Positions 981 through 55,198 of a stretch of 64,000 bases of DNA are shown one piece after another (position 1 is the stretch's first letter; every line of letters begins with the position of its first letter). This DNA comes from Craspedostauros australis (taxonomy: Eukaryota; Bacillariophyta; Bacillariophyceae; Mastogloiales; Achnanthaceae). Where the stretch lies: positions 186,001 through 250,000 of the forward strand of contig JAMXDE010000051.1 of the NCBI GenBank assembly GCA_026770025.1, given 5' to 3'. Made by a program: the position numbers and the translations under genes. Below the pieces are notes generated by a model that was given only the letters and a program-made list of their open reading frames with translations, was not told where the DNA came from and did no database searches.

Positions 981-2264
981 TCAGCATCCACTCCCCACAC
1001 TACTCGACTCTCCCTGCACGAGCTCCCTCACCACATGGGAAACAACCGTCACGTTGATGGAATTCCCAATGAGCTTGTACTGCGTTTCCAGCTTCAACGA
1101 AGACGGCATTGCAAACTCCGCTGGAAATCCGAACAATCGAAGCAGCTCGCTGGGTGAGAACCGTCTCAGACGACCGTGGTACTGTATCATGTCCGTTGGA
1201 TCCTCCAAAGGAACGTCGGCGACAGCGTGGGGATAATCCGCGAGCAGCAAGCTACCGGACGAGGCATGCAAGATACGCCCGTACGCAGCCGTGAAGCATC
1301 GCGTGACGCGGTCGAAAGCTGAAACGACGGGCAGGTCCTTCGCCCACGGTTGCTGCAACGCGGTTTCGGTCACGAAGCATTGCACATCATCGATAGCATG
1401 CGGTTGCAGGTACTCGCTGATGGGACGCACCACATCCATCGCCGGCCGCACCTGATAGTCTCCACGCCGCGTTCCAAATCGTTGCGAATGCAGCTCCGCG
1501 ATCATGTAGTACCGCATGCGGTGGTTGGGAATGCCAAAGTGCATCGGCGTCCACAGGAACTCCTTCCATGCGTACCCGCAGGCCTCCAGGCAGTCGTACC
1601 ATTCCTGGATCATCTGAGACGATGCGAATCCTTGCACGTTTTCCAGCAGCAGCCATTTTGGACGCACGTCTATTGTTCCGCGCGGAAGCGAGTCCTTGCT
1701 CCTCTTCTTCTTCTTGCGTCGTCCTCGTCGTTGCTGTTGCTCTTCTTGTGCTTTTTGCTGCTGCGCTTCATTTTCACAAACGCTCGCGGGAGCGGCATCG
1801 GAACAGCTCTGGCGCAAGAAATGCATGATGGCACGAAATCCAGCGGTCCGTTTATCCTCCCCATCCAACTGCTTGGCCATGCGCGTCTTCGTGAAGGGCT
1901 GGCATGGCGGCGACATGGTCCACAGATCGGCAGGGCGGTGCTCGCCGTTGGGTGTGTGCGCCTCACGGAACATCAAATGCTGCTCGGGTTGCAGCTGCTC
2001 CACAAGTTTGGTGAACGTGGTCGTTTGGGTTGCGGAACAACCGCAGTGCTCGTTGTGCTGATAGACCGAGTTGGCGTGGTTGTTGATTTCGAATGCGCGG
2101 CATTCTGCGATCGCCACGTTGCTCTCCACCGCGAAGCGCATTCCACCGATGCCGGAGAAGAATTCAATCATTCGGATGGGTGCGTGCTGTGGTCGTGATG
2201 CTGTAGTTGATGCCATGGCGTCATTGGTGTCATTGGCGTCGTCATGACAAGTATGGATGGGCAT
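981..2264 (-). CDS. TRDMT1: tRNA (cytosine-5) methyltransferase DNMT2/TRDMT1
   Basis: The product is 427 residues and belongs to the C5-methyltransferase fold; the family methylates C38 of tRNA-Asp and a few other tRNAs using SAM. Motif I is FFSGIGG at about 34-41. Motif IV is SPPCQPFT with the catalytic Cys at 121. Motif VI is LLLENV at about 205-210, and motif VIII is RMRYYMIA at about 249-256. The DNMT2-specific CFT signature is RCFTAAYGR at about 322-330, and motif X is LIGNSINV near the C-terminus. A Gln/Lys/Arg-rich insert at about 168-190, with a run of four Lys, sits between motifs IV and VI and is not typical of the family. Residues 1-30 form a His/Asp/Thr-rich leader; a second Met at residue 17 could be the true start. 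No intron is needed. A TATA-like element (reads ATAAGTATACA on the minus strand) lies just upstream at about 2270-2285. Confidence 0.93.
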   Translation of the reverse strand: MPIHTCHDDANDTNDAMASTTASRPQHAPIRMIEFFSGIGGMRFAVESNVAIAECRAFEINNHANSVYQHNEHCGCSATQTTTFTKLVEQLQPEQHLMFREAHTPNGEHRPADLWTMSPPCQPFTKTRMAKQLDGEDKRTAGFRAIMHFLRQSCSDAAPASVCENEAQQQKAQEEQQQRRGRRKKKKRSKDSLPRGTIDVRPKWLLLENVQGFASSQMIQEWYDCLEACGYAWKEFLWTPMHFGIPNHRMRYYMIAELHSQRFGTRRGDYQVRPAMDVVRPISEYLQPHAIDDVQCFVTETALQQPWAKDLPVVSAFDRVTRCFTAAYGRILHASSGSLLLADYPHAVADVPLEDPTDMIQYHGRLRRFSPSELLRLFGFPAEFAMPSSLKLETQYKLIGNSINVTVVSHVVRELVQGESSSVGSGC

Positions 2265-2987
2265 GTGGCGTGTATACTTATGACAGAAGCTGTCGATTGC
2301 GCTCTTCGTTCCGCATTTAGATCAGTCCTTGGAAATCGATGCCCGCAGGTATGATGCTCCAACACAGGATTGTTTCCGAGGCTGAAGCTGTTGCACCTCT
2401 CCCATCACTCTCACGATGCGTTGTTGTGGACAGAGGCGTCGACATCGAAATCGAACCACGAGACATTTTGTGAGGCGAAAACAGCGTGACAAGACAAAAG
2501 AGCGATGTGACGGACGGACATTACACCTGACATGGAATTGATGACCATGTCTGGAATAATGACCTTCGCTGTGGTCGTTTCGGCTGTTTCTTGTGCAATC
2601 AACACAGACAACCTCCAACAGATTAGCGCAACGATCGACAAGCAACATGACAACGACTCTGATCAGTATGGTGGAGAGCATCAGCAACTATGGCAATAGC
2701 AATAGCAATCACAATCGCAATACCTTGAGATTCACACCCAGCCTCTCCACACTTGATCCGATTGAACGTTCGTGAACAAGCCCAAAGAGTGCTTCGACAG
2801 TATTGTGCAAAGTACTTTACTGGAGCACCCACCGACTGCTCCTGCGACGACTCCGGAGACTTCGCGGGTCGTCCATTGGACAACACTCTCCGACAGGCAG
2901 ATCATCAGTCAGGTGTATCTCCTGAGTATAGAAGTATAATATCATACTGCCAGATTAGGACCTACGAGCGAGAACGAGTGCAAGTTG
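2265..2987. promoter_or_regulatory. Divergent promoter region between DNMT2 and GT92 gene
   Basis: DNMT2 is read leftward and the GT92 gene rightward from this 720-bp region. An AT-rich TATA-like run (GTATAATATCATA) lies at about 2932-2945, 40-150 bp before the two candidate GT92 starts. Small repeats of AGCAAT/AGCAAC occur at 2680-2715. No supported coding sequence was seen. Confidence 0.5.
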
Positions 2988-4577
2988 ATGCAAGCATCGA
3001 CCAACTCTTACTCGCCACTGAATCAGCAGATACGTACAGACAGAGATAGACACGTACGAGTAGAGAGGCAGAGAGGCAGAGAGAGCATGCCTCTCAATCC
3101 TCCCGGCCATGAGGCAGCCCCAAAGTCAGGACCACCAACCACATCGTCACCACCGAAGCCAAATGCAAGGCCGGGCGGATGGAGGAGCATCACCAACATG
3201 AAGGGTAGTGCCTCTGGCGGTGCCAACACTGGCAGCAGGAAGATGTCGTTGTCCACAGTCATCAATCTGCAGCTCGTCATCTTCGCCGTGTGGATCGTCT
3301 TTCAGGTCATACAATTGGAATCATCCATGCTTCGACATTCCAATCACGATGCGAATGGCCACCCCGATGGCCATGCTGCAAGTACTTCCCAAGATCCACA
3401 TCATGTAGGCAACCCAACGTACATCCAGACCTCCCGACAGTTCCAGAACAACGATCGCAACGATGCGAGCGCTCATTCAATTTCAGATGGCAATGCGAAC
3501 GCACTGCCATACACTCACGAAACGTATCTGCATAGGTCACACAAGGCAGGTTTCGGCGCATGCCTCATCCTCATGGACGACAATCATTACCTCAGCGAAT
3601 GGCTTGCCTACCACCACCTAACGCTTCCCCTGCGACGGCTCATCGTTGCCATCGATCCTCGGTCGCAGACGGATCCAACAGAGATTCTGAAGAGGTACCA
3701 ACGCAACGGCCTCATGAACATCACCATCTGGCACGAGGAGGATATAATGCCCCCCGAGGCGCTCTTCATGCACACCACGATTGGGGAACTCAACCACAAC
3801 GACTTGGAGATCCTCTACATCGAGCGACAGAGATTCTTCAACACCCGCTGCATGTCCTGGATGCGTCACGAAGGTTATTCCTGGGTGGCAATGACCGACG
3901 TCGACGAGTTCGTCGATATCAATCCCTATGCCTCCAAGCAGTTCAAGCTCACGCCGCCACCAACTCGCAACTACACCATCCTCGACATCATCCAAAGGAA
4001 CCGTTTCAGCAACGCCATGTTCCGACGCGGTTGCATCAGCATGCACCGATTGCAGATGGGCACCACGGAAAGCGCGCCAGCGCAGGTCCAAAAGCTGGTG
4101 CCGTCCGGATTCAACGGATCCGATTTCCAGACCCTGCGGTTTCGGTACCATTCCGGCATCAAGAACAAACAGTACAACAAGATCGCCAAATGTTTGGTCG
4201 ACGTCCGCAGCGTGCCGGGCCATTGGATTCAGCACGATGAGAACGACGCCCACCGACCCATCAAGAGCATCTGCAAGGATGCCAACAAGCGCATCGAAAG
4301 CGCCATGGCGCCCCTCATGGCGTACCATTATGCCGGGACCTGGGAGGCGTGGAACTTCCGCGTGGACTTTCGGGAGAAGCGCAAGCGGGAGGTCTATGAC
4401 CAGCTGGCCTTCAACAAGTCGCAGAATCAGATCGATCACATTCGACCGTGGTTGCGGGAGTTCGTCGACACGATGGGATACCATCTGGCGGCGGAGCTGC
4501 TCAAGGGCGCGGGGCAAGTGCCACCAAAGCCCAACGTCACGTGGATGCCGGGAGGGTTCGAAAACACAACGCTGTAG
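2988..4577 (+). CDS. Glycosyltransferase family 92 (DUF23)-like type II membrane protein
   Basis: The product is up to 529 residues from the ATG at 2988. A second in-frame ATG at 3087 is at least as plausible, because the TATA-like run at 2932-2945 would leave almost no leader for the first. One membrane segment at about 92-112 (NLQLVIFAVWIVFQVIQL) follows a short Ser/Pro-rich tail, the layout of a Golgi type II enzyme. The catalytic region begins at about 186 with CLILMDDNHYLSEWLAYH, which matches the GT92 opening motif (NE..YL.EWL.YH). The metal-binding acidic motif is TDVDEFVD at about 303-310. Several N-X-S/T sites lie after the membrane segment. The fold is GT-A; the donor and acceptor sugars cannot be told from sequence. 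It is convergent with the TMCO4-like gene. Confidence 0.8.
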   Translation: MQASTNSYSPLNQQIRTDRDRHVRVERQRGRESMPLNPPGHEAAPKSGPPTTSSPPKPNARPGGWRSITNMKGSASGGANTGSRKMSLSTVINLQLVIFAVWIVFQVIQLESSMLRHSNHDANGHPDGHAASTSQDPHHVGNPTYIQTSRQFQNNDRNDASAHSISDGNANALPYTHETYLHRSHKAGFGACLILMDDNHYLSEWLAYHHLTLPLRRLIVAIDPRSQTDPTEILKRYQRNGLMNITIWHEEDIMPPEALFMHTTIGELNHNDLEILYIERQRFFNTRCMSWMRHEGYSWVAMTDVDEFVDINPYASKQFKLTPPPTRNYTILDIIQRNRFSNAMFRRGCISMHRLQMGTTESAPAQVQKLVPSGFNGSDFQTLRFRYHSGIKNKQYNKIAKCLVDVRSVPGHWIQHDENDAHRPIKSICKDANKRIESAMAPLMAYHYAGTWEAWNFRVDFREKRKREVYDQLAFNKSQNQIDHIRPWLREFVDTMGYHLAAELLKGAGQVPPKPNVTWMPGGFENTTL

Positions 4578-4967
4578 AGAACGCTGTAGAGAGAGGGGCA
4601 CCTGCATCCTAGTACTCGTAGCATGCGCTCTCATGGAGAAGTTGCGGAGCCGTCAATGGGGGTATCAACGATTGGCTAAATAGAGTAGAGTACATTAGAC
4701 TAGAGTACCAATAGCATTGGTGTCTGCCCATCTGCCAACTCGATTTGATTGCAGTTGGCAGTCCATGGTGCCTTGAGTTTTATCACCACTTTGGTCACCA
4801 CCGGTCTCATGTACAAAACGAGCTCAAAGTACAAGTGGGGTAAAGCAGAATCATGCAGTGTACTATGACTCGTGGTATTCTATGTTTTATCTTGGACACT
4901 TCATTGCACACTTCGTGGGACACTCCACTAGATTGGCTCTCAGGTGGCACTAATTTCGCCAACTCGT
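4578..4967. other. Convergent 3' intergenic region
   Basis: This 390-bp region lies between two convergent stop codons. It starts with repeated GAGTA words (GTAGAGAACGCTGTAGAGAG, then AGAGTAGAGTACATT at 4683-4697). It must hold the 3' ends of both transcripts. No ORF or RNA gene was recognised. Confidence 0.5.
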
Positions 4968-9260: not shown

Positions 9261-10279
9261 CCTTTCTGTCTCCGTCTTCGTTCACTTATGTGAGGTTGTG
9301 TGAGGTTGCGTCAGATGATGTGAGGTTGTCGAGAGTGAAACAGTGGGGGACACCTATCAAGCTACTTGCAGAGACCGTGTCCTCGCCCCTCACTCGGCTC
9401 GCCGTCTCTCCACTCACCGCATTGGCGCCTCCAGCCCAGATCGTGTTGGTGCTGGTTGTAGGAGTATCCAGCAACGAGCTATTCCACGTTCCGCAACAGG
9501 GCATTGTTGGAGACATCACTGTGTGGAATTCCCACTCCAGAAAATGACCCGTTGGGTTTTGTGTCGTTTCTCGTCACGCGCAACCGATGATGTCGCATGA
9601 GACACACGATTGTGACACTGTTGCGCCATCGTTCTCCGTTTCAAACGGTCATGAAAAGACAGAAGAACAGGCGAATCCGGACGGCGACCAGACAGTGTCA
9701 CGAATCGGTCATTTCGAATTTGGAGTTGGCGGGAGTTGATGTTGTGGATCGTTTGCGCCTTTCTTGTCTTTCGTTCTTTGGTTGTTCGGTTGGCATTGGT
9801 TGTGCATTGATTGTACCATACTCCGCTATACCTACTCTGGTGTGGTCCGACCCATCTCCACAATCACGCACCGGTCCATCCTCGTGCGAGCTGCCAATGG
9901 AAGTGGTGCTGAGGGTCACGTCTCTCTTGGATGCCACTGCCCCTCGTCAGCGTCACTAGCAAACCATACTAGGAGGCCGTACTACCTATTATACTATACA
10001 AGCCGCAATACTATACTATACCAAACAGAGACGCTGCACTCTTGCGATACGTCTACTTCTGTTCACTTGGAGAGTGACGACCGATCAATCTACTCCACCC
10101 AGAGTACGACTGCTATACGAGTACTCACACGAGCTATTGCACGAGCAGACTCGTAATAGTACGTACTCTTCCAGACTCCAACGATCATCAAGTTCGTCCA
10201 GCCCGTCGGCAACATCATCAATAGCAAGAGGAGGGAGCTTTCCAGAGAGAGAGAGTCTGTGCAGCATCACGGCAACACC
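9261..10279. promoter_or_regulatory. Divergent promoter region between TMCO4-like gene and alpha-mannosidase
   Basis: About 1 kb between divergent starts. Near-repeats of GTGAGGTTGTGTGAGGTTGCG flank 9290-9330 on the TMCO4 side. On the mannosidase side a cluster of TATACTATA-like words lies at 9986-10023, followed by GAGTAC/GTACTC words at 10095-10165. No supported coding sequence was seen. Confidence 0.5.
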
Positions 10280-13200
10280 ATGAAGGACAACAGAAGAGCA
10301 GCGAGCGCAAGATGGACCCGCATCCTGTCGGCAGGTCTCTTGTGCGCAATCCCTTTCATCACATCATCATCGTCATCATCGCTCTGCGTTGCTGCGACAA
10401 CATCGACGTCAACGTCAACGTCAACGACAGCGTCCAGCGCCGTGACGATGCATGATGAGGAGAGCAATGGCCACGTTGATGTTGCGTTGGATCAGCTGCG
10501 CTCCCTCCAAGGCGATGGAGGCGATGGCACCAACAGCACGGATGGCAACAGTACCGATACAAATACAAACAGTACAGATGGCAACACTACTGATATTGAT
10601 GGCAGCAGCGATTCCCCAACGCAAACGCCAACATCCCAGCCAACGCAAGCAGGCACCGATGACACCAACGATGGCGATGCAGGAGATGGCAGCGACTTCA
10701 CGTACGATGATACGATCGAACTCGGCCATGCCACCAAGTTTAGCGTCCCGAGCAACGATGATGCGACGAAAGACGATGACAAGACGCTGTACATTCACAT
10801 CGTGCCTCACACGCACGACGACGTCGGCTGGCTCAAGACGGTGGATCAGTACTACCACGGACTCAACAATTCGATCCGGGAGGTCAACGTGCAGGCCATC
10901 CTCACGACCTCCATGGACGCTCTCAAGGAGAATGAAAACAGGACCTTCGTCTACGTGGAGCAAAAGTTCTTCTCGCAGTGGTGGCTCAAGCAGTCCAAGC
11001 TCAAGAAGAAGCTCGTGAGGCGACTCGTCAACACCACCAACCAGCTGTCCTTCGTCAACGGCGCCTGGAGCATGCATGATGAGGCCGCGGCGCATTACCT
11101 CGCCATGATCGATCAGACCACGACGGGACACACCTTCCTCAACCTAGAGCTCGGCGCCATCCCAAAGGTCGGCTGGCAGCTCGACCCCTTCGGCCACTCC
11201 AGCTCCCAGGCATCCTACTTCACCCACAAGATGGGCTTCGACGCCCTCTACATGGGACGCATCGACCACCAGGATCTGGCCCAGCGCCACGACCAACGCC
11301 AATGCGAGGGCTTTTGGAAGGCCTCCCAGGATGGCAACCTGGGCAGCAAGGCGGACACCTCCATCTTCTGGGGGTTGACGGGAAGCTACGGAGGCAACTA
11401 CGGCGCGCCGGACGGTTTTGACTTCCTCACCGGCGTCTCTTCAGCGGATGACGCAGATCCATTGTTGCAGGATCTGACATTGCCAGCCATGCTCACGCGG
11501 CTCGACGAGGTGCTCCTGCCGCAGCTGGTCACGCAGGCAAATCGCACGCAAGGCCACCACATGATGGTCACCATGGGGACGGACTTCCGCTACCAGGACG
11601 CGCCAGCCGCATTCCGCAGCAACGACCTCCTCATCCAGGGCGTCAACGCCATCCAGGACGTCAATCCAGCCCGCATCAAAGCGTTGTTCGGGGATCTAGG
11701 ATTTGACAAGCTCCACATCTTCTACTCCTCGCCGGACTACTACACGGAGTGGAAGTACAAGGAGCTGCAGCAAAAGGCGGATGCGGCCTCGCCGTCCTAC
11801 GATGAGAAGCGGGATGATTTCTTCCCCTACGCCGACAACACAAACGCCTACTGGACGGGATACTTCACGTCACGGCCAGCCCTCAAACGTCTCATCCGAC
11901 AGGCCTCCGCCATCTTCAACTCCGCGCGTCAGATGGAGGCCCTGCTCGGCAAGCTGCGCGAGATCAACCGCCTCGAGCACCATCACAACTCGCCCACCCT
12001 CAGGTGCGACTGCGGCTGGTCCCTCTTCCCCCTCGAGGACGCCCTGGGCATCGCGCAGCATCATGACGCCATCACGGGTACCTCCAAGCAGCACGTCGCC
12101 TACGATTACGCCAAGCGCATCAGCCATGGCATCTCAAAGGCGATGACCATGATCAAGCAACAGCTGCGCCACGTCCTCGTCTTCCAGGACAAGGCATTTC
12201 AGATGAACGACCTCGACTACTGCCAGCTCCTCAACGAGACCAAGTGCGACGTCGCCGTGGCGCAAACTTCCAGCGACGCGACGGATGATGGCAATGATGT
12301 TCTCGCCATCATCGTGTACAACGCCCTGGCCCAAGCACGCAACACCTACGTCCGGCTGCCCGTCGGATCGGAGGGACGGTACCACGTCACGTGCAAGGGA
12401 TGCAATGCGACGAATGACACCACGCTCACCGTGGATTCCATGCCCGTCTCGGCCTCCAAATTTGACGACGGCGCCGGCCAGTACATCACGTGGAATTCGG
12501 GCGAGCTTCCGCCGACCGGGATGGGGGTTTACACCATTGCGAAGGTGCCCCAGACGACCGAGGTGGCCACTGCGGAATCGCCCGCTGTGGAGATCAGCGC
12601 ACCCGCGGCCAGCACGCAGCACCGCACCGTTTCCAACGCGAAATTCCAAGCCGAGTTCGATGACAGCGGCACGCTGCAGTCGATCCAGATGAAAGGAAGC
12701 TCGCACAAGCACGACATGGACGTCAAGCAGCAATGGGGGTATTACGAATCCTACCAGGACGACACCGACGCAACCGATACCACGCCCAACAAGCGGCAAA
12801 ATTCAGGTGCCTACATCTTCCGTCCCAAGGATTCGGGCAAGGACAGCATGGTCCCTCTCAGCGCCAAAGCCGGCGGCGCGGAGTTCGTGGCGTCCTCCAA
12901 CGACGACGTCGTCGAAATCCGATCCAACTTCGACGTGGATTGGCTGTCCCAGGTCATCCGCGTCTACGCCGACAAGGACTACATGGAGGTCGAGTACACC
13001 GTGGGACCCATCGACGTCTCGGATGGTCGTGGCAAGGAAATTGTCTCGCGCTACACGTCGGCTGGCATGAAGTCCGGCACCTGCAAGACGGATTCCAACG
13101 GACGCGAGTTCCTGGAGCGCAAATGGAATCACCGCCCCACGTGGGATCTGGACGTCAGCGAAGAAATTGCCGGCAACTACTACCCCGTCACCGCCGGCAT

Positions 13201-14230
13201 CTCCTTCGAAACATCCGACGAGTTCATGGCGATCGTCACGGACCGGTCCGTCGGTGGGATGTGCATCGATGACGGTGACGACTCCTCAGACAAGGCGCTG
13301 GAGGTCATGGTCCACCGGCGCATGATCAACGACGACAGCCGCGGTGTCGGCGAGGCGCTGGACGAAACCGACCAGGGCATGACGCCGTACCCGCCGTACG
13401 GTGATGCAACACGCGTTGGAGACGGGCTCATCATCCGCGGCACCCACCGCCTCATCTTTGGAAAGGCCAACGACGCCAGCGAATCCATCCGAACGAATAT
13501 GGACGATATCTTCATGGAACCGCTGTTGTTTGCCGGGTCGCTGTTCCAGGACGGGGGCAAACAGCACAGCACGTTCAATGACATTTCTGCAATCTCGCGC
13601 AACAACGCGCTGCCCAAGAACGTGATGCTCATGACGTACACACGGCAGAAGCCCGATCTGTATCTGGTGCGATTGGGTCATCAATTCAGCGTGGGTGAGG
13701 ACGCGACGCTGTCCAAGACAGCGACGGTTGATCTCCAGGTTTTGTTCGACGGATACGCCATCAGCAAAGTGACCGAGATGACGCTGAGCGCCAACCAGAA
13801 GTACGCGGATTGGAATGACCGGCGCATTGATTGGAGAGGCAGCGGTCCGTTGCCGGATCCCATCGCATCAGATGACACGATCGTGTCGCTGGAGCCGATG
13901 GACATCCGCACCTTCCTCGTGAAGGTCGAATTGAACACCAAGGGTTCCCCGTCGCATCCACATTCGTCCGCACCGCACGCGACGCACGTCCCCGCTCCCA
14001 CATCGGCTCCGCATCAGCACTTCGGCACCCCTCAAAAGCAAAGCGAGCGGAAGGAATCGAAGGGATTCCCCATGGGTGTCGTTTACGGTGTACTTGCGAC
14101 GTTGGCAGTGATCGGCGTGGGACTCGTGGTGCGCCGCTTCGGTCGGTACCGCCAGTTCGATCGTGCCGCAGGTACCGACGATTTGGACTTTGAGCTGTCC
14201 GTGCAAGGTTACCAGCCTGGAATGACGTAG
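10280..14230 (+). CDS. Class II (lysosomal-type) alpha-mannosidase, GH38, with C-terminal membrane anchor
   Basis: The product is about 1316 residues. The start is the ATG at 10280 in a good context (ACCATGA); the frame is open a few codons further only by non-ATG triplets. A signal peptide lies at about 10-40 (ILSAGLLCAIPFI), followed by a Ser/Thr/Asp/Asn-rich linker. The GH38 catalytic domain opens at about 175 with VPHTHDDVGW (zinc and substrate ligands). It contains QLDPFGHSS at about 300, where the Asp is the nucleophile. QHHDAITGT at about 593 is also conserved, followed by the GH38 middle and C-terminal beta domains. The family removes alpha-linked mannose from N-glycans in lysosomes or vacuoles. 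Unlike soluble lysosomal enzymes, it has a membrane helix at about 1270-1292 and a short acidic tail ending in DFELSVQGYQ, so it is a type I membrane protein. Multiple N-glycosylation sequons are present. Confidence 0.93.
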   Translation: MKDNRRAASARWTRILSAGLLCAIPFITSSSSSSLCVAATTSTSTSTSTTASSAVTMHDEESNGHVDVALDQLRSLQGDGGDGTNSTDGNSTDTNTNSTDGNTTDIDGSSDSPTQTPTSQPTQAGTDDTNDGDAGDGSDFTYDDTIELGHATKFSVPSNDDATKDDDKTLYIHIVPHTHDDVGWLKTVDQYYHGLNNSIREVNVQAILTTSMDALKENENRTFVYVEQKFFSQWWLKQSKLKKKLVRRLVNTTNQLSFVNGAWSMHDEAAAHYLAMIDQTTTGHTFLNLELGAIPKVGWQLDPFGHSSSQASYFTHKMGFDALYMGRIDHQDLAQRHDQRQCEGFWKASQDGNLGSKADTSIFWGLTGSYGGNYGAPDGFDFLTGVSSADDADPLLQDLTLPAMLTRLDEVLLPQLVTQANRTQGHHMMVTMGTDFRYQDAPAAFRSNDLLIQGVNAIQDVNPARIKALFGDLGFDKLHIFYSSPDYYTEWKYKELQQKADAASPSYDEKRDDFFPYADNTNAYWTGYFTSRPALKRLIRQASAIFNSARQMEALLGKLREINRLEHHHNSPTLRCDCGWSLFPLEDALGIAQHHDAITGTSKQHVAYDYAKRISHGISKAMTMIKQQLRHVLVFQDKAFQMNDLDYCQLLNETKCDVAVAQTSSDATDDGNDVLAIIVYNALAQARNTYVRLPVGSEGRYHVTCKGCNATNDTTLTVDSMPVSASKFDDGAGQYITWNSGELPPTGMGVYTIAKVPQTTEVATAESPAVEISAPAASTQHRTVSNAKFQAEFDDSGTLQSIQMKGSSHKHDMDVKQQWGYYESYQDDTDATDTTPNKRQNSGAYIFRPKDSGKDSMVPLSAKAGGAEFVASSNDDVVEIRSNFDVDWLSQVIRVYADKDYMEVEYTVGPIDVSDGRGKEIVSRYTSAGMKSGTCKTDSNGREFLERKWNHRPTWDLDVSEEIAGNYYPVTAGISFETSDEFMAIVTDRSVGGMCIDDGDDSSDKALEVMVHRRMINDDSRGVGEALDETDQGMTPYPPYGDATRVGDGLIIRGTHRLIFGKANDASESIRTNMDDIFMEPLLFAGSLFQDGGKQHSTFNDISAISRNNALPKNVMLMTYTRQKPDLYLVRLGHQFSVGEDATLSKTATVDLQVLFDGYAISKVTEMTLSANQKYADWNDRRIDWRGSGPLPDPIASDDTIVSLEPMDIRTFLVKVELNTKGSPSHPHSSAPHATHVPAPTSAPHQHFGTPQKQSERKESKGFPMGVVYGVLATLAVIGVGLVVRRFGRYRQFDRAAGTDDLDFELSVQGYQPGMT

Positions 14231-49717: not shown

Positions 49718-50081
49718 TCAGATTCTTCATCGACAAATCCGATGCATGCGAATGCTTGCTCTGTCCCTCTGGAGAGTAGTAATACCCCCCTCTACTCCAC
49801 TCTCCGAGCATGGGAACACATTACAGTAACGTCACAGCGATGGTGTTTCGTCGCCAATTTATCCTCTATCATAGGTCCCAACTGTTAGTGTTGCATTCGT
49901 ATGACTTTTATGGACAAGCATGTAACATGACAGCACTCTTCATCCACTGGGATAGCACAGACACAGAGCTAGTATGGTATGTTGTTGATGTTTTGAGTCG
50001 CATGAGTCGAGTATTGAGCCCGGTTAGCGAGTCGCGCCAAAAAGGAGCCGTTGAGTTCATCTTGAATGAGCTCATCGACAC
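49718..50081. other. Intergenic region between RRM and GT61 genes
   Basis: This 364-bp region lies between two plus-strand genes. A CCCCCCTCTACTCCACTCTCC pyrimidine patch and AT-rich words lie at 49785-49870. No coding sequence was seen; it must hold the RRM gene's 3' end and the GT61 promoter. Confidence 0.45.
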
Positions 50082-51761
50082 ATGAAACAAGAGCTCAAGA
50101 GAGGCGAAAAGCACGATGATCTGATGGCGACTTCATTATTCCTGAAACAGAGTGGGTATCAACGAATGCAACCGAAAGATTCAGAGATGAAGCGAAGATG
50201 GCAGAACGATGCAAGGGCGAGGCAACGCAATGGGAATGGGAATGGCGGTGGCACTAGCGGCAGCAGCGCCATGGCACCGTTGGCTGCGTTGATCTCTAGT
50301 TCTATCACCGCTGTTCTCAGCAGCAACAGATCCAGGCACATCGGCGGCGCTCATCTCAGGAACCGCCAGTCATCCGTGGCGACTCCGTCATCGGTCTCAA
50401 GATCACGCAAGGTCATGTTTATGATGATGTGTCTAATGTGCCTGGGACTGATCCAACACCTGAGAACGTCCACGAGGTCGCTGAATTCCATGGAACGTTC
50501 GTTGGATGTCGCCGTTGCGCAGGACAAGTCGCCCAAATCCTCCAATCCGAAGCCCGCAGCGAAGCCAGAGCAGCAGCAGCAAGGGCCGGCGGCGAGCAAA
50601 GCGGCACCGAAAGTTTGCAACGGAACAGATCCCTCAACTCCGGGACTGTACGGCACAACTCCATTCCCCAAGACCTACCCTTGGAACATCTTCCTCAGGC
50701 CCATGCACGGCGACTTGGCAGAGCTGTGGAAAGCCAGCGAAGAACGGAATCAGGATGATCCAGCCGGAGCACGAGCACCTTCCGACGCCAGCCCCGATCC
50801 AGTCGACGGCATTGATACCGTTGCTTGCGCGGTCACCAACTTCGAGCTCTTCATCCATTTCCCCCACACCCTGCAGCGCATCCTCTCGTGCTGGTCGCTG
50901 TGGCAGCAGTTTCCGTCCGCCAGGAATCATGTCTACGTCATGCAACCGGACTGGTATGCGAGATTGCTCAATCAGAGTCCCTTCAACAAGGGAATCTTCG
51001 ACATGCTCGAAAAGGCGGGGATTCAATTCATCAAGGCCACGCCGGAAGAGTACATCCGCGAGTACGCATCCAACCCTGCCACCTTGCTCGTGGCGGAGTA
51101 CAAATATGTCACTTCGTTCCGAATGGCAAATGGGATGCACACGGCGGCCTTCCGAGAGAAAACCTACGAGTCCGTCGGCCTGACCAACAGCGACACCACC
51201 AAGTCACTTCCATACTGCTCGCCGGTCGCGTCATCACCATCGTCGACATCGACGTCGACGTTGCTTCCGCCAGGACCCATGCCCAGAATAACCATCCTCA
51301 ATCGCGATGGCAGCAGAAGGCTCATGGATGCGGCGGAGATTTCATTCGCGTTGAAGGAACGGCTCAACTTGCCGGAAGCACCACCGGTCAAGTACACCGA
51401 ATGGGCCACCTTCTCGCAGCAGGTTGAGCTGTTCGCCACGAGCGACATTCTCATCTCGCCGCATGGGGCGCAGACGGCAGGGCTCATCTTCCTTCCCAAA
51501 TGCGCCTCGCTGATTGAAGTATTTCCATTCGGTTACGGCATCCCGTTCTACTTTGGTTCGCTCAGCCACGTCGCCGGTTACAACTATTCCCACGTCTACG
51601 CTGGGAAGACCAACCTCACGGAGGACTACAAGATCCATTCTGCCACCTATGAGGACCGCTTGAGGATCCGCAGCCAGAAGGTGTGCGTGTCGGTTGACAG
51701 CGTCGTGGAAGCCGTCGCAGATCAGATCCAAAACTGGCGGCAGTGTTGTGGACTGTCATGA
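50082..51761 (+). CDS. Glycosyltransferase family 61 (DUF563)-like type II membrane protein
   Basis: The product is 559 residues in one exon from the ATG at 50082; later Mets (for example residue 36) are possible starts. A basic N-terminal tail precedes one membrane helix at about 109-122 (VMFMMMCLMCLGLIQHL), then a Lys/Pro/Gln-rich stem. The catalytic region at about 205-540 ends with the GT61 signature. ITILNRDGSRRLMDA at about 403, then VELFATSDILISPHGAQTAGLIFLPKCASLIEVFP at about 448-482, match the family's conserved R-x-I-x-N and HGAGLTN-type blocks. Plant members add beta-1,2-xylose to N-glycans or xylose to cell-wall xylan. Animal EOGT/POMGNT2 are relatives. Donor and acceptor here are unknown. 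It follows the RRM gene on the same strand with about 360 bp between them. Confidence 0.82.
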   Translation: MKQELKRGEKHDDLMATSLFLKQSGYQRMQPKDSEMKRRWQNDARARQRNGNGNGGGTSGSSAMAPLAALISSSITAVLSSNRSRHIGGAHLRNRQSSVATPSSVSRSRKVMFMMMCLMCLGLIQHLRTSTRSLNSMERSLDVAVAQDKSPKSSNPKPAAKPEQQQQGPAASKAAPKVCNGTDPSTPGLYGTTPFPKTYPWNIFLRPMHGDLAELWKASEERNQDDPAGARAPSDASPDPVDGIDTVACAVTNFELFIHFPHTLQRILSCWSLWQQFPSARNHVYVMQPDWYARLLNQSPFNKGIFDMLEKAGIQFIKATPEEYIREYASNPATLLVAEYKYVTSFRMANGMHTAAFREKTYESVGLTNSDTTKSLPYCSPVASSPSSTSTSTLLPPGPMPRITILNRDGSRRLMDAAEISFALKERLNLPEAPPVKYTEWATFSQQVELFATSDILISPHGAQTAGLIFLPKCASLIEVFPFGYGIPFYFGSLSHVAGYNYSHVYAGKTNLTEDYKIHSATYEDRLRIRSQKVCVSVDSVVEAVADQIQNWRQCCGLS

Positions 51762-53197
51762 GCCGCGAGGACGAGGACTGCGAATGGTAGTCGTGGACTA
51801 AACGTGAGGTTTTAACATGCATATTAGTACACTCTCTATTACAATATATACAATATGATATAATTGAATAGTATTTTATGAGATGCCATGCTTCCCGCGC
51901 TCAGCGGAATGTTCTCAGTCGTTGACACCATCCCCGTTCCAACGCCGAGCTTGCATGTGTTGGTATGCATGGTACATGGTGGAAGTGATGCGCCTGTGTG
52001 TGTCCCGTTGAAGCCGCAACGGAGGCCTTCATCTCACCGACTGTCTCTTTTTCTAAAGGTGCTGGACCACTGAGCCGGCATCCCACTCCGCGCACAACCG
52101 AATACTGTCATCTTACGCAATGTATGGTGGCATAGATGCAGTCGCCTCTCCCCGCATGGAAGGCGGCGTCCCGTTCATTCCCAAGTGCCCCGTCGCGGAG
52201 AAATTCACCAGCGTTGGCCAGCTGGATGGATTCATGGGAGTACTTGCTGACCTTTCCACCTTGCTTCCGAAGGTGCTCGTTTTCGGCATGTGGCAAGGCC
52301 ACGAAATGGCCGCAATTGCGGTTGCCATTCCTTTGCCATTCCTTCAATTTCGAATGGCATAGACTCATTTTTTTCTCCCTACGTTCTCCACACAACAAGT
52401 CAACCACCACACAAAGTTATGGCGCGAAAGAAGGAAAGGATCCACGACTACGCAAAATCGATGGTCAGGTTTGACTTGTTCCTGTCCCGATTTCGATTCC
52501 CGAATAGTAACTGCGTGGGAATGGAATGGACATAGTGAAACACGAACGCGATCGCCAAAATCTCTGTCGGCACACAAAGCGCAACGAATCGAATGAAGGT
52601 GGACAAGTACGTTGGTTGTGTGGCGAAATCAAATGTGATGCAGGAAGTTATTGTTCTGTGTGCTCCTTCTGTTCTCATCCCACCAACAATACGAGCTCCA
52701 GATCGCAGTTGATGCACTCGCGATAACACTAGTTGTGGAGTTTTGGCCCCTTGTTGCCACTGGTTTGCTTGCTTTTGGGAGAATCGGCGATTGGATATTT
52801 AGGAGCCCATTCAGTCACAAACCAACGAGTCGCGGGGGGAGACATTTTTTGGCCAGTTGGTCCGTCCTTCCGAGGCTCTCGCAGTGCGCCGTGTTGTAGC
52901 AATGCTCCGTCGGTCCGACTTTTTGACGAGAACCGTCAATCTTCCGTCAATGCCGGTTCAACAAAAACGGGTTGCAGCAAGACTTCGTGTTGAGGGTCCA
53001 CCCAACATTTCCACCCAATTTGGGCCATGTTTTCGTTGTTCTCGTCCGGCACGTCGCGGAGTTGTGTTGTGCAAGCGGGCATGCTCGTTTTGGCGAGAAC
53101 CATCGCCATCGCCCGTGGATTTCGTACTGGGTGTTTTTATCGCACATCCGAGCCGTCGCTGCCTGAGCCTTCGCGTATGTTGGCGATCGTGTCGACA
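51762..53197. other. Intergenic region left of the foldback element
   Basis: These 1.4 kb contain an AT-rich patch at 51830-51885 (TATTACAATATATACAATATG) just after the GT61 gene. No recognisable gene or RNA was seen. The sequence from about 52740 onward has the same texture as the outer flanks of the foldback element and could belong to a larger, decayed repeat. Confidence 0.4.
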
Positions 53198-53355
53198 GGG
53201 GCTTCCGGTAAACTGCCGGATATGGTGGTCCGAGTGAATTTTAACGGACTGACGAACAATGTTAGTCGTGAACGAGATTTTATTAGTCTTGGTTGCCATG
53301 TCCTTCAGACATTGTCGTCGCCACTCGCGACTCGTATCTGTGCGATGTCAAAAGA

Positions 53356-53518
53356 TGCCCTAAAATAGGGCACGTTCTCAAACCATGCCCTAAATTAGGG
53401 CACCTTTTCAAAACGTGCCTTATATAGGGCATCTTTTGAAAACGTGCCTTATATAGGGCACCTTTTCAAAACGTGCCTTAAATAGGGCATGTTTTCAAAA
53501 CGTGCCCTAAATAGGGCA
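53356..53518. repeat. Palindrome array 1 (six units)
   Basis: Six near-palindromes of the form TGCCYTAAATAGGGCA are spaced by 12-13 bp of CTTTTCAAAACG-like sequence, giving a period of about 28-29 bp. The core varies (AAAATA, AAATTA, TATATA twice, AAATA twice). Units with CCTT on the left arm are all in the same orientation. Confidence 0.92.
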
Positions 53519-53748
53519 CCTTTTCTCCCTCATCCACACGTCGCTGTTCGCAGCCGATTGGACGACAGAAAGAGCAAGAGCAAATCCCGCGCAACAACGC
53601 GACGACAGAGGATTATCAAAGTCATGTCACGCCAAGATGACGATAAGTATTAGTGTTCTGATTCGTCATTCGGTGACGTCCACATCGTTCCCCGTTGATG
53701 GTTTTGTGGAATGTGCCCATCGTGGCTGGGCTGTTGTGAAACAAAACG

Positions 53749-53910
53749 TGCCCTATTTAGGGCATCTTTTCAAAACGTGCCCTATTTAGGGCATCTTTTC
53801 AAAACGTGCCTTATATAGGGCATCTTTTCAAAACGTGCCTTAAATAGGGCATCTTTTCAAAACGTGCCCTAAATAGGGCATCTTTTCAAAACGTGCCCTA
53901 TTTTAGGGCA
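53749..53910. repeat. Palindrome array 2 (six units)
   Basis: Six units of TGCCYTATTTAGGGCA type with the spacer TCTTTTCAAAACG and the same period as array 1. Spacer and asymmetric units run in the same direction as in array 1, so the two arrays are direct, not inverted, copies although the element's ends are inverted. Confidence 0.92.
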
Positions 53911-54082
53911 TCTTTTTTTCACTGCAGGCTAGAGACAATTCAATCACGGATTGATATAACCAAAAATGCCAAGTACGACATTCCAACCAGGACTAAGAAT
54001 TTCGCATTCACGACTAATATGGTCCGTTAACCAAATCATGATGCTGTTCGTTAGTCCGATAGTCCGTTTTACCGGAAGCCCC

Positions 54083-55198
54083 AGACAAACATATGTGTTG
54101 CGCTTTTGACTACTGTCGGTGCGGAAGAGTCGTTTTGCTTCGGTGATTTTTTCAGTCTGTTCAGGTGATCGTCGTGTTCGACATCACAGCACTGTTGTGT
54201 CACAGAATGCGATTACTGGCGACTCGACTTGCACTCTCGACAGGAACGGAACAGGAACAACAAAATTCCGTCTGCTTTGTCTGGTCAACCAGGGCCACAG
54301 GTGATCACCATCATCATCATCATCATCATCACCATCATCATCACCATCATCACCATCATCAATCATAATAATAATAATACTAAACATGATAATAATAATA
54401 ATAGCAACAGCAATGTGGCCTCCACTGGCCATGTCAATTGTGAGGATGAATGTGGCTTAGAGATCTGCTGTCACTGAGGATTTGCATGTGTCTCTGGTTT
54501 CTCTACTCTGCACCACATCCGAGGCGCAGCGGATGAATTGGCTCATGAACAAAGCGAGAGATTTTTCTCCTCGAGCGCTTGTGTTCTGAAATGGCGCGAA
54601 GTGCGATGGCTATTGCGCAGTCGTTTTGTGTTGCTCACTGCTGCAACATGATCGTTTCTTTTTCGACCGCGTCACTCTACTACTGGCTGTCAGATGCATA
54701 CGAACACTTTTGTATTCGTCAATCCGTGTTTTGATGGTTTGGGACCCCGTAGGATCCCTGCGGACGTGTCTGTGGAGGTGGTGCTTCACGTCGTTGTTGT
54801 GGTGGTGGTTCCGAACTCTTGTGTCCAGCAACCAGCACTTCATGCATCACTGTTCCCATACGCACCAATGCGATACCCCTTGCAATTCTGTTGCGCAACT
54901 GCTGGTTCTCAATGACTGTTTCCCCGAAACCATGGGGCTTCGCTTTGCTTCATGCGCAACACCAGGGGCATCCGTTCACCTCCGACCTGCCTTGATTTTG
55001 CCCCTCCTGTTGCCACAGTGACACCCACCTCCTCCATCATCCTCCACAAAGGATATCATCTCTGCAAAAAGACTCCAGACCCATTCTTTCAGCAAAGACT
55101 GTTTGCTGTGTGGCTCATTGGACCAACCACAACCAGCTTCACTCTATTGTTGTGTATCACAGCCTGCCAAAAAGAGCAACCCACCAGCATTTCCAACC
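54083..55198. other. Region between foldback element and unassigned ORF
   Basis: Apart from the compound microsatellite, this 1.1 kb has no recognisable gene. Base composition shifts to a CA/TG-rich texture from about 54740 onward, continuing through the next ORF. Confidence 0.4.
54303..54412. repeat. CAT/CAC and AAT compound microsatellite
   Basis: About 60 bp of ATC/CACC triplets pass into AATAAT-type triplets and end in ATAATAATAATAGC. It lies 220 bp outside the foldback element. Confidence 0.92.

Follow-up and report, generated by a model that had tools for sequence, protein, structure and literature searches.

An 883-bp element at positions 53199-54081 of the window (the whole 64,000-bp stretch that was analysed, C49:186001-250000 in a genome of 74.8 Mb and 90 contigs) is almost certainly a cut-and-paste DNA transposon in the PIF/Harbinger (PHIS) superfamily, miniature and non-autonomous. 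Its target-site duplication is CWG, and it is best explained as an internally deleted descendant of an element resembling the 5.6-kb copies found elsewhere in the genome. It was probably moved by such a larger, transposase-encoding relative. Each half of the element holds six short palindromes in tandem, and we predict from their sequence and from known systems that these two arrays are, rather probably, binding sites for an element-encoded protein.

The element and its copies

The element is flanked by CAG on both sides (53196-53198 and 54082-54084), recognised as target-site duplications through flank comparison, and the CWG type was confirmed by the empty site of a related copy. The terminal inverted repeats, GGGCTTCCGGTAAA at 53199-53212 (+ strand) and TTTACCGGAAGCCC at 54068-54081 (- strand), pair perfectly over 14 bp. 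Inside them lies a 51-bp subterminal inverted block, of which the left copy (53252-53302, +) has 78% identity to the reverse complement of the right copy (53977-54027, -); its score was 47, against a best score of 23 among 200 shuffles. The left array (53356-53518, +) is composed of six 16-17-bp palindromes of the TGCCYTAWWTAGGGCA type with a period of 29-30 bp, and the right array (53749-53910, +) of six palindromes with a period of 29 bp, in the direction of the left one. The spacer between the arrays (53525-53742) is free of overlap with ORFs of at least 200 aa, and the 5.6-kb relative matches it at 71% over about 100 bp.

The preliminary description was right about the six palindromes in each half and about their common direction: left and right arrays are 92% identical directly over 143 bp, versus 83% inverted over 167 bp. 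The element that it placed at 53198-54082 is real, with exact bounds of 53199-54081. Instead of the single inverted end repeat of about 115 bp that it proposed, we found the perfect 14-bp terminal repeat and the separate block at 78%. The helical register suggested for the palindromes was not borne out, as 29 bp correspond to 2.76 turns at 10.5 bp per turn. The label of foldback element was also given up. In that class, long and internally repetitive inverted repeats make up most of the element; here the inverted parts outside the arrays are 14 and 51 bp, and the arrays are direct. Local pairing of the outer ends gives the 51-bp block as the best result for the window element. For the long element it gives the 14-bp repeat and, more weakly, a pairing of 47 bp at 81%.

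In the window, no Rfam match was found at gathering thresholds, and the tRNA search found none. ATC and AAT microsatellites are located at 54304-54403, about 220 bp past the element. Three ORFs of the window we take, by eye, to encode a DNMT2-type methyltransferase (981-2321, - strand), a GH38 alpha-mannosidase (10160-14230, +) and a GT61-like glycosyltransferase (50070-51761, +).

For a mobile element, the preliminary description had expected dispersed copies with shared ends, variable unit numbers and short target duplications, or a related element that encodes a transposase, and all of these were found. The left end has at least 37 matches in the genome and the right end at least 34. Thirty-six stretches around end matches were fetched and the flanks of 29 copies were examined, with the partial copies L014, L016, L027, L030, L031, L032, L039 and L044 excluded from the flank count. 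Through comparison of 300 bp on each side, 16 copies were unrelated to any other and 13 fell into two groups. In each of the 16 copies with unrelated flanks the element is preceded by C-W and followed by W-G, and the two W are identical. The 13 copies with shared flanks (C41, C60, C64, C66; C1, C7, C14) kept the CWG flanks in 4 of 9 copies of one cluster and 0 of 4 of the other; they are short with few units, some have damaged ends, and they were not counted as independent insertions. The degenerate copies on C41, C60, C64 and C66 (384-651 bp) have common flanking sequence, and therefore these insertions multiplied along with their surroundings.

On C1, one 5.6-kb copy is nested within another, and the outer copy, which stood outside the flank relatedness test, has the C-W and W-G flanks too. 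The uninterrupted copy on C5 contains the empty site GGCCAGCTC, compared with GGCCA-element-AGCTC at the nested site on C1, and this fits a CAG duplication.

The copies look recently mobile. The copy on C9 and seven others at unrelated sites show no difference over the 828 aligned bases, apart from one extra base in two of them, and the window copy is identical to the copy on C38 over 885 of 885 bases. The copy on C73 is without 88 bp of the 828-bp copies and otherwise identical, having two left units and not five; unit number varies from 2 to 6 per array across the miniature copies.

Two outcomes would have spoken against a mobile element, namely ends that occur only here or arrays that occur genome-wide without them, and neither was seen. 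Palindromes were counted at 330 places, and among the matches listed 100 of 100 fall inside copies of the element (one of these a partial copy). At least one place of the array search has no end match (C66:93444, L032; the search gives a lower bound), and a satellite independent of the element was rejected. In viral contigs, 0 relatives were found for the unit pattern and 0 for the transposase.

Long coding relatives and classification

Four long copies of about 5.59 kb were found, one each on C5 and C21 and two on C1 (the inner copy, and the outer one minus its insert), with 99.9-100% identity to the C5 copy over the aligned parts. Their terminal repeat is that of the miniature at both ends, and the three copies counted (C5, C21 and C1 inner) contain seven plus six array units. 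The window copy shows 86% identity with the long element over its first 330 bp and 82% over its last 374 bp, as expected of an internal-deletion derivative from a sister element.

The transposase frame of the long element (535-1524) matches DDE_Tnp_4 (E 1.6e-14) over positions 1-158 of the 158 in the profile. It is open and 100% identical in the C5, C21 and C1 inner copies, and is broken in the C1 outer copy by the insertion of the inner one. A search of the transposase against solved structures gave 0 matches. A second frame of 374 aa, ORF2 (3829-4953), is present in all four long copies. On the opposite strand, three open frames at 1682-3552 (L009:3521-5391) are a probable third gene, which had no Pfam match over the cut-off; two of the frames were searched for, and both recur in the sister elements on C21, C6 and C27.

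Relatives of ORF2 were found near transposases of other families, and six were placed in one alignment. The two halves of this alignment match each other with 95% probability and 18% identity, while 30 column shuffles gave at most 2.9%; ORF2 therefore looks like two tandem copies of one module. ORF2 had no Pfam match below E 0.05, and no Myb/SANT match was found in ORF2 and three relatives taken from the six aligned. Weak CUT and HTH_71 matches (E 0.11) among the relatives were not counted as evidence. The ORF2 profile gave seven matches with solved structures (best E 0.018), none of which is a DNA-binding protein. An assignment of ORF2 to Myb/SANT by sequence found support in neither Pfam nor the seven structure matches.

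The autonomous partner encodes a DDE_Tnp_4-type transposase, and the terminal inverted repeats are short with a 3-bp duplication, both as in the PHIS superfamily. Since the first base of the element is G and the last is C, the sequence by itself can equally be read as showing a 1-bp duplication. The element is also a MITE, being short and non-coding, with ends common to an autonomous element, target duplications and several copies.

To our knowledge, PIF/Harbinger elements with their Tourist-like MITEs carry no comparable arrays. Their duplication, and that of PIF/Harbinger in the strict sense, is TWA (PMC4482050), in contrast to CWG here. The closer resemblance is with NuwaI, which was described in 2015 from 16 animal genomes ("mainly animals" in the abstract) and has CWG duplications, terminal repeats of 12-61 bp starting with GGG, a DDE transposase and a second protein (PMC4482050). 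The present element has CWG duplications and a 14-bp terminal repeat, GGGCTTCCGGTAAA, that starts with GGG. However, the second protein reported for NuwaI has a Myb/SANT domain, whereas here it would be a tandem module without a Pfam match and a third gene is probable; and NuwaI was published from animals, whereas this element comes from a diatom and carries palindrome arrays (PMC4482050). As the resemblance rests on two features, CWG and the GGG start, the element is better regarded as NuwaI-like than as NuwaI. Harbinger-like elements were already reported from the diatom T. pseudonana (PMC2806351).

With mPing/Ping and Harbinger3_DR, the element shares a two-protein system and miniatures that have the ends of the coding element; in Harbinger3_DR the second protein is reported to bind a subterminal motif (PMC9710019, PMC2836001). 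Muta1 and other Mutator-like elements of Aedes also have short subterminal tandem repeats, with numbers varying in non-autonomous copies, but Muta1 has a Mutator transposase and 8-9-bp duplications, and its 12-bp repeats lie within long inverted repeats and hence are inverted, whereas the repeats here are direct (PMC5225508). Galileo/Foldback elements likewise have tandem repeats near the ends, and those of Galileo hold tested binding sites of its THAP-domain transposase; yet Galileo belongs to the P-element superfamily, with inverted repeats of 0.5-1.2 kb and inverted arrays (PMC3688188). The words "subterminal" and "palindrom" are absent from the main text of the PHIS survey (PMC4482050). 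The statement in the preliminary description that no named element has this layout stands in part: the element does fit the PHIS superfamily with NuwaI-type duplications, but in the literature covered, most subscription papers aside, no paired direct palindrome arrays are described in that superfamily.

The palindrome arrays and their predicted role

When at most 2 mismatches are allowed, the 16-bp consensus matches the window 18 times (nine places, both strands), always within the two arrays; 0.06 were expected, and 18 were reached in 0 of 100 shuffles. In the long element, left and right arrays are 94% identical directly and 79% inverted. The arrays of the window also pair with each other in inverted orientation at about 81%, because the units are palindromic.

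The two arms of the unit differ in conservation. All 53 units of the five cleanest elements have an intact right arm, TAGGGCA, and 27 of them an intact left arm, TGCCCTA. These five belong to 16 copies picked to avoid identical ones, whose 87 units are not independent of each other; the right arm is intact in 78 and the left in 36 of the 87, and therefore degenerate copies do alter the right arm. In a different set of 16 intact copies, no unit has its better arm on the left. With the right arm kept and the left drifting, the units have a polarity, which is identical in both arrays.

The inter-unit spacers are TTTTCAA in 39 of 40 cases, left and right arrays together. The spacer in its usual form, TTTTCAAAA, is itself nearly palindromic, so that the tested array stretches are predicted to form a single long hairpin on each strand. 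Such folding follows from the sequence and is no proof of function. The arrays might act as RNA if, once transcribed, each formed a long hairpin that supplied small-RNA silencing or made a transcript more stable. Stretches of 146-149 nt from both arrays do have much stronger folds than shuffled sequences, on the + and the - strand alike (z -9.8 to -16.2), and the left-arm changes in clean copies (C to T, A to G) preserve G-U pairs on the + strand. However, any tandem palindrome would fold likewise, the wobble was kept in three of three transition types, for which we estimate a chance of about 1 in 8, and the degenerate left arms TGCCATA and TGCACTA do not keep wobble pairs. A function as RNA would also not need an array at each end, and we consider this reading very unlikely.

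Both arrays of the long element contain the variant TGCTCTA, and both arrays of the miniature copies contain TGCCTTA, except for the shortened left array on C73. Such lineage-specific variants suggest that units were copied between the two arrays within each lineage, and we infer that this copying would most simply explain the direct orientation. The sharing of variants, together with the variation of unit number (as in the C73 deletion), is also what would be seen if the arrays were functionless, that is, slippage-prone passengers of the transposon that unequal exchange and conversion keep homogeneous. Against this, all 16 intact copies keep two arrays, with a minimum of 2 units on the left and 4 on the right. 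The arrays are also better conserved between the miniature and the long element (87-92% in four comparisons, figures flattered by picking the best repeat register) than the outer ends (84% and 77%). Arrays on both sides occur in other families as well, and drift in the clean copies is confined to the left arm. Arrays without a function are thus quite unlikely, although homogenisation instead of selection could account for their persistence.

A host DNA-binding factor may be considered as the reader of the arrays, exploited either for targeting or to transcribe the transposase. The CArG consensus of MADS-box proteins is matched by CCTAWWTAGG, and the site of telomere-repeat Myb proteins by the TAGGG arms; CC(W)6GG occurs in those 16-bp units that have CCC, and the left array (element positions 160-350) sits between the end and the transposase frame (535-1524). 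But the CArG consensus does not hold for units that contain TGCCTTA or TGCTCTA, and a 3-nt centre raises the number of W to seven. The right array is located past ORF2 instead of at its start, and both arrays persist in the miniature copies. The listed palindrome places, 100 of the 330, are confined to element copies as given above, and the unrelated arrays of other families suit element-specific binders better. A host factor is therefore rather unlikely.

In the preferred reading, binding by an element-encoded protein, the transposase of the long element would cut at the 14-bp ends, and the ORF2 protein would load along the paired arrays at both ends. Bound there, it may recruit and concentrate the transposase and help to pair the ends. 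A preferred half-site, TAGGGCA, would give each unit its polarity, and the common direction of the arrays would come from unit copying between them. We infer array binding by ORF2 from the second, DNA-binding protein of PIF/Harbinger, the motif of Harbinger3_DR, the multi-site binding of Galileo and the conservation of the arrays here. PIF/Harbinger transposition is reported to require a second, DNA-binding protein, which in Harbinger3_DR recognises a 9-bp subterminal motif (PMC9710019, PMC2836001), and the tested THAP-domain sites in the end repeats of Galileo support a multi-site model (PMC3688188). Against it, the authors of work on mPing, the best-studied relative, doubt a sequence-specific action of internal sequences (PMC9921582). 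A Harbinger-derived protein bound its own promoter in cells, yet a similar motif was reported not to be bound in gel shift (PMC11893794).

More tentatively, a CWG-type Harbinger lineage outside animals may have replaced single subterminal sites by paired direct arrays with several sites at each end, read by a second protein that would have two DNA-binding modules in tandem. Every family would have evolved an array of its own, palindromic or not, with array and binder co-evolving, and the shared direction would give the two ends different polarity in the synaptic complex. We regard this as possible, though less likely than not.

Arrays in other Harbinger-like families

Paired subterminal arrays are a repeated theme in this genome, with unrelated motifs and not always in direct orientation. 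A second Harbinger-like family (family B; seven copies, transposase 37-38% identical) has the 21-bp unit CCCGACATTCCCGACAAAGCA. Its arrays are on both sides and direct in six of seven copies, with the copy on C4 having the right side only, and CWG flanks were found in 5 of 5 copies in which both ends were seen. The units of family B are non-palindromic, and therefore palindromy is no shared need. In a third family (transposase 39% identical), direct arrays on both sides are built from a 20-bp unit with TTTAGACGTCATT, as known from one merged copy whose left end lies outside what was identified.

A sister group with transposases 55-57% identical was found at C21:35989-43023, C6:340253-347359 and C27:28489-35593 (L049/L083, L050/L081 and L080/L051). 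It has inverted repeats of 1.0-1.45 kb that hold simple repeats, as measured within fetched DNA that stops short of the true ends. Arrays of the 11-bp GGGGGACAC type are on both sides and inverted in the C21 element and on one side in the C27 element. For two further families, a single end was seen.

Little is known of the way in which a PIF/Harbinger element recognises its own ends. The second protein was needed in yeast and human-cell assays (PMC2836001), and its function was still called unknown in the 2015 PHIS survey (PMC4482050). Several families in one genome, with distinct arrays and diverging second proteins, offer a natural experiment in which binders can be matched with their sites, and the signs of recent mobility suggest that the system is open to assay. 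With this CWG duplication, a type that the 2015 survey placed in animals (PMC4482050) is extended to a diatom.

Some minor observations were made beside these families. A 20-bp array around ATGCAT/TGCATT at L088:740-926 (C4) adjoins a family B copy at its truncated left end, and is probably another transposon with its own array. At L063:3176-3473, about 23 copies of the 13-bp unit ATGCGATCATAGC are located about 250 bases past the end of a family B copy. The silicon-transporter family PF03842 had 88 matches in the genome, which points to a diatom host and is a large number for one; 32 are near full length, 28 of these without internal stops, and such genes occur in other silica-forming algae too.
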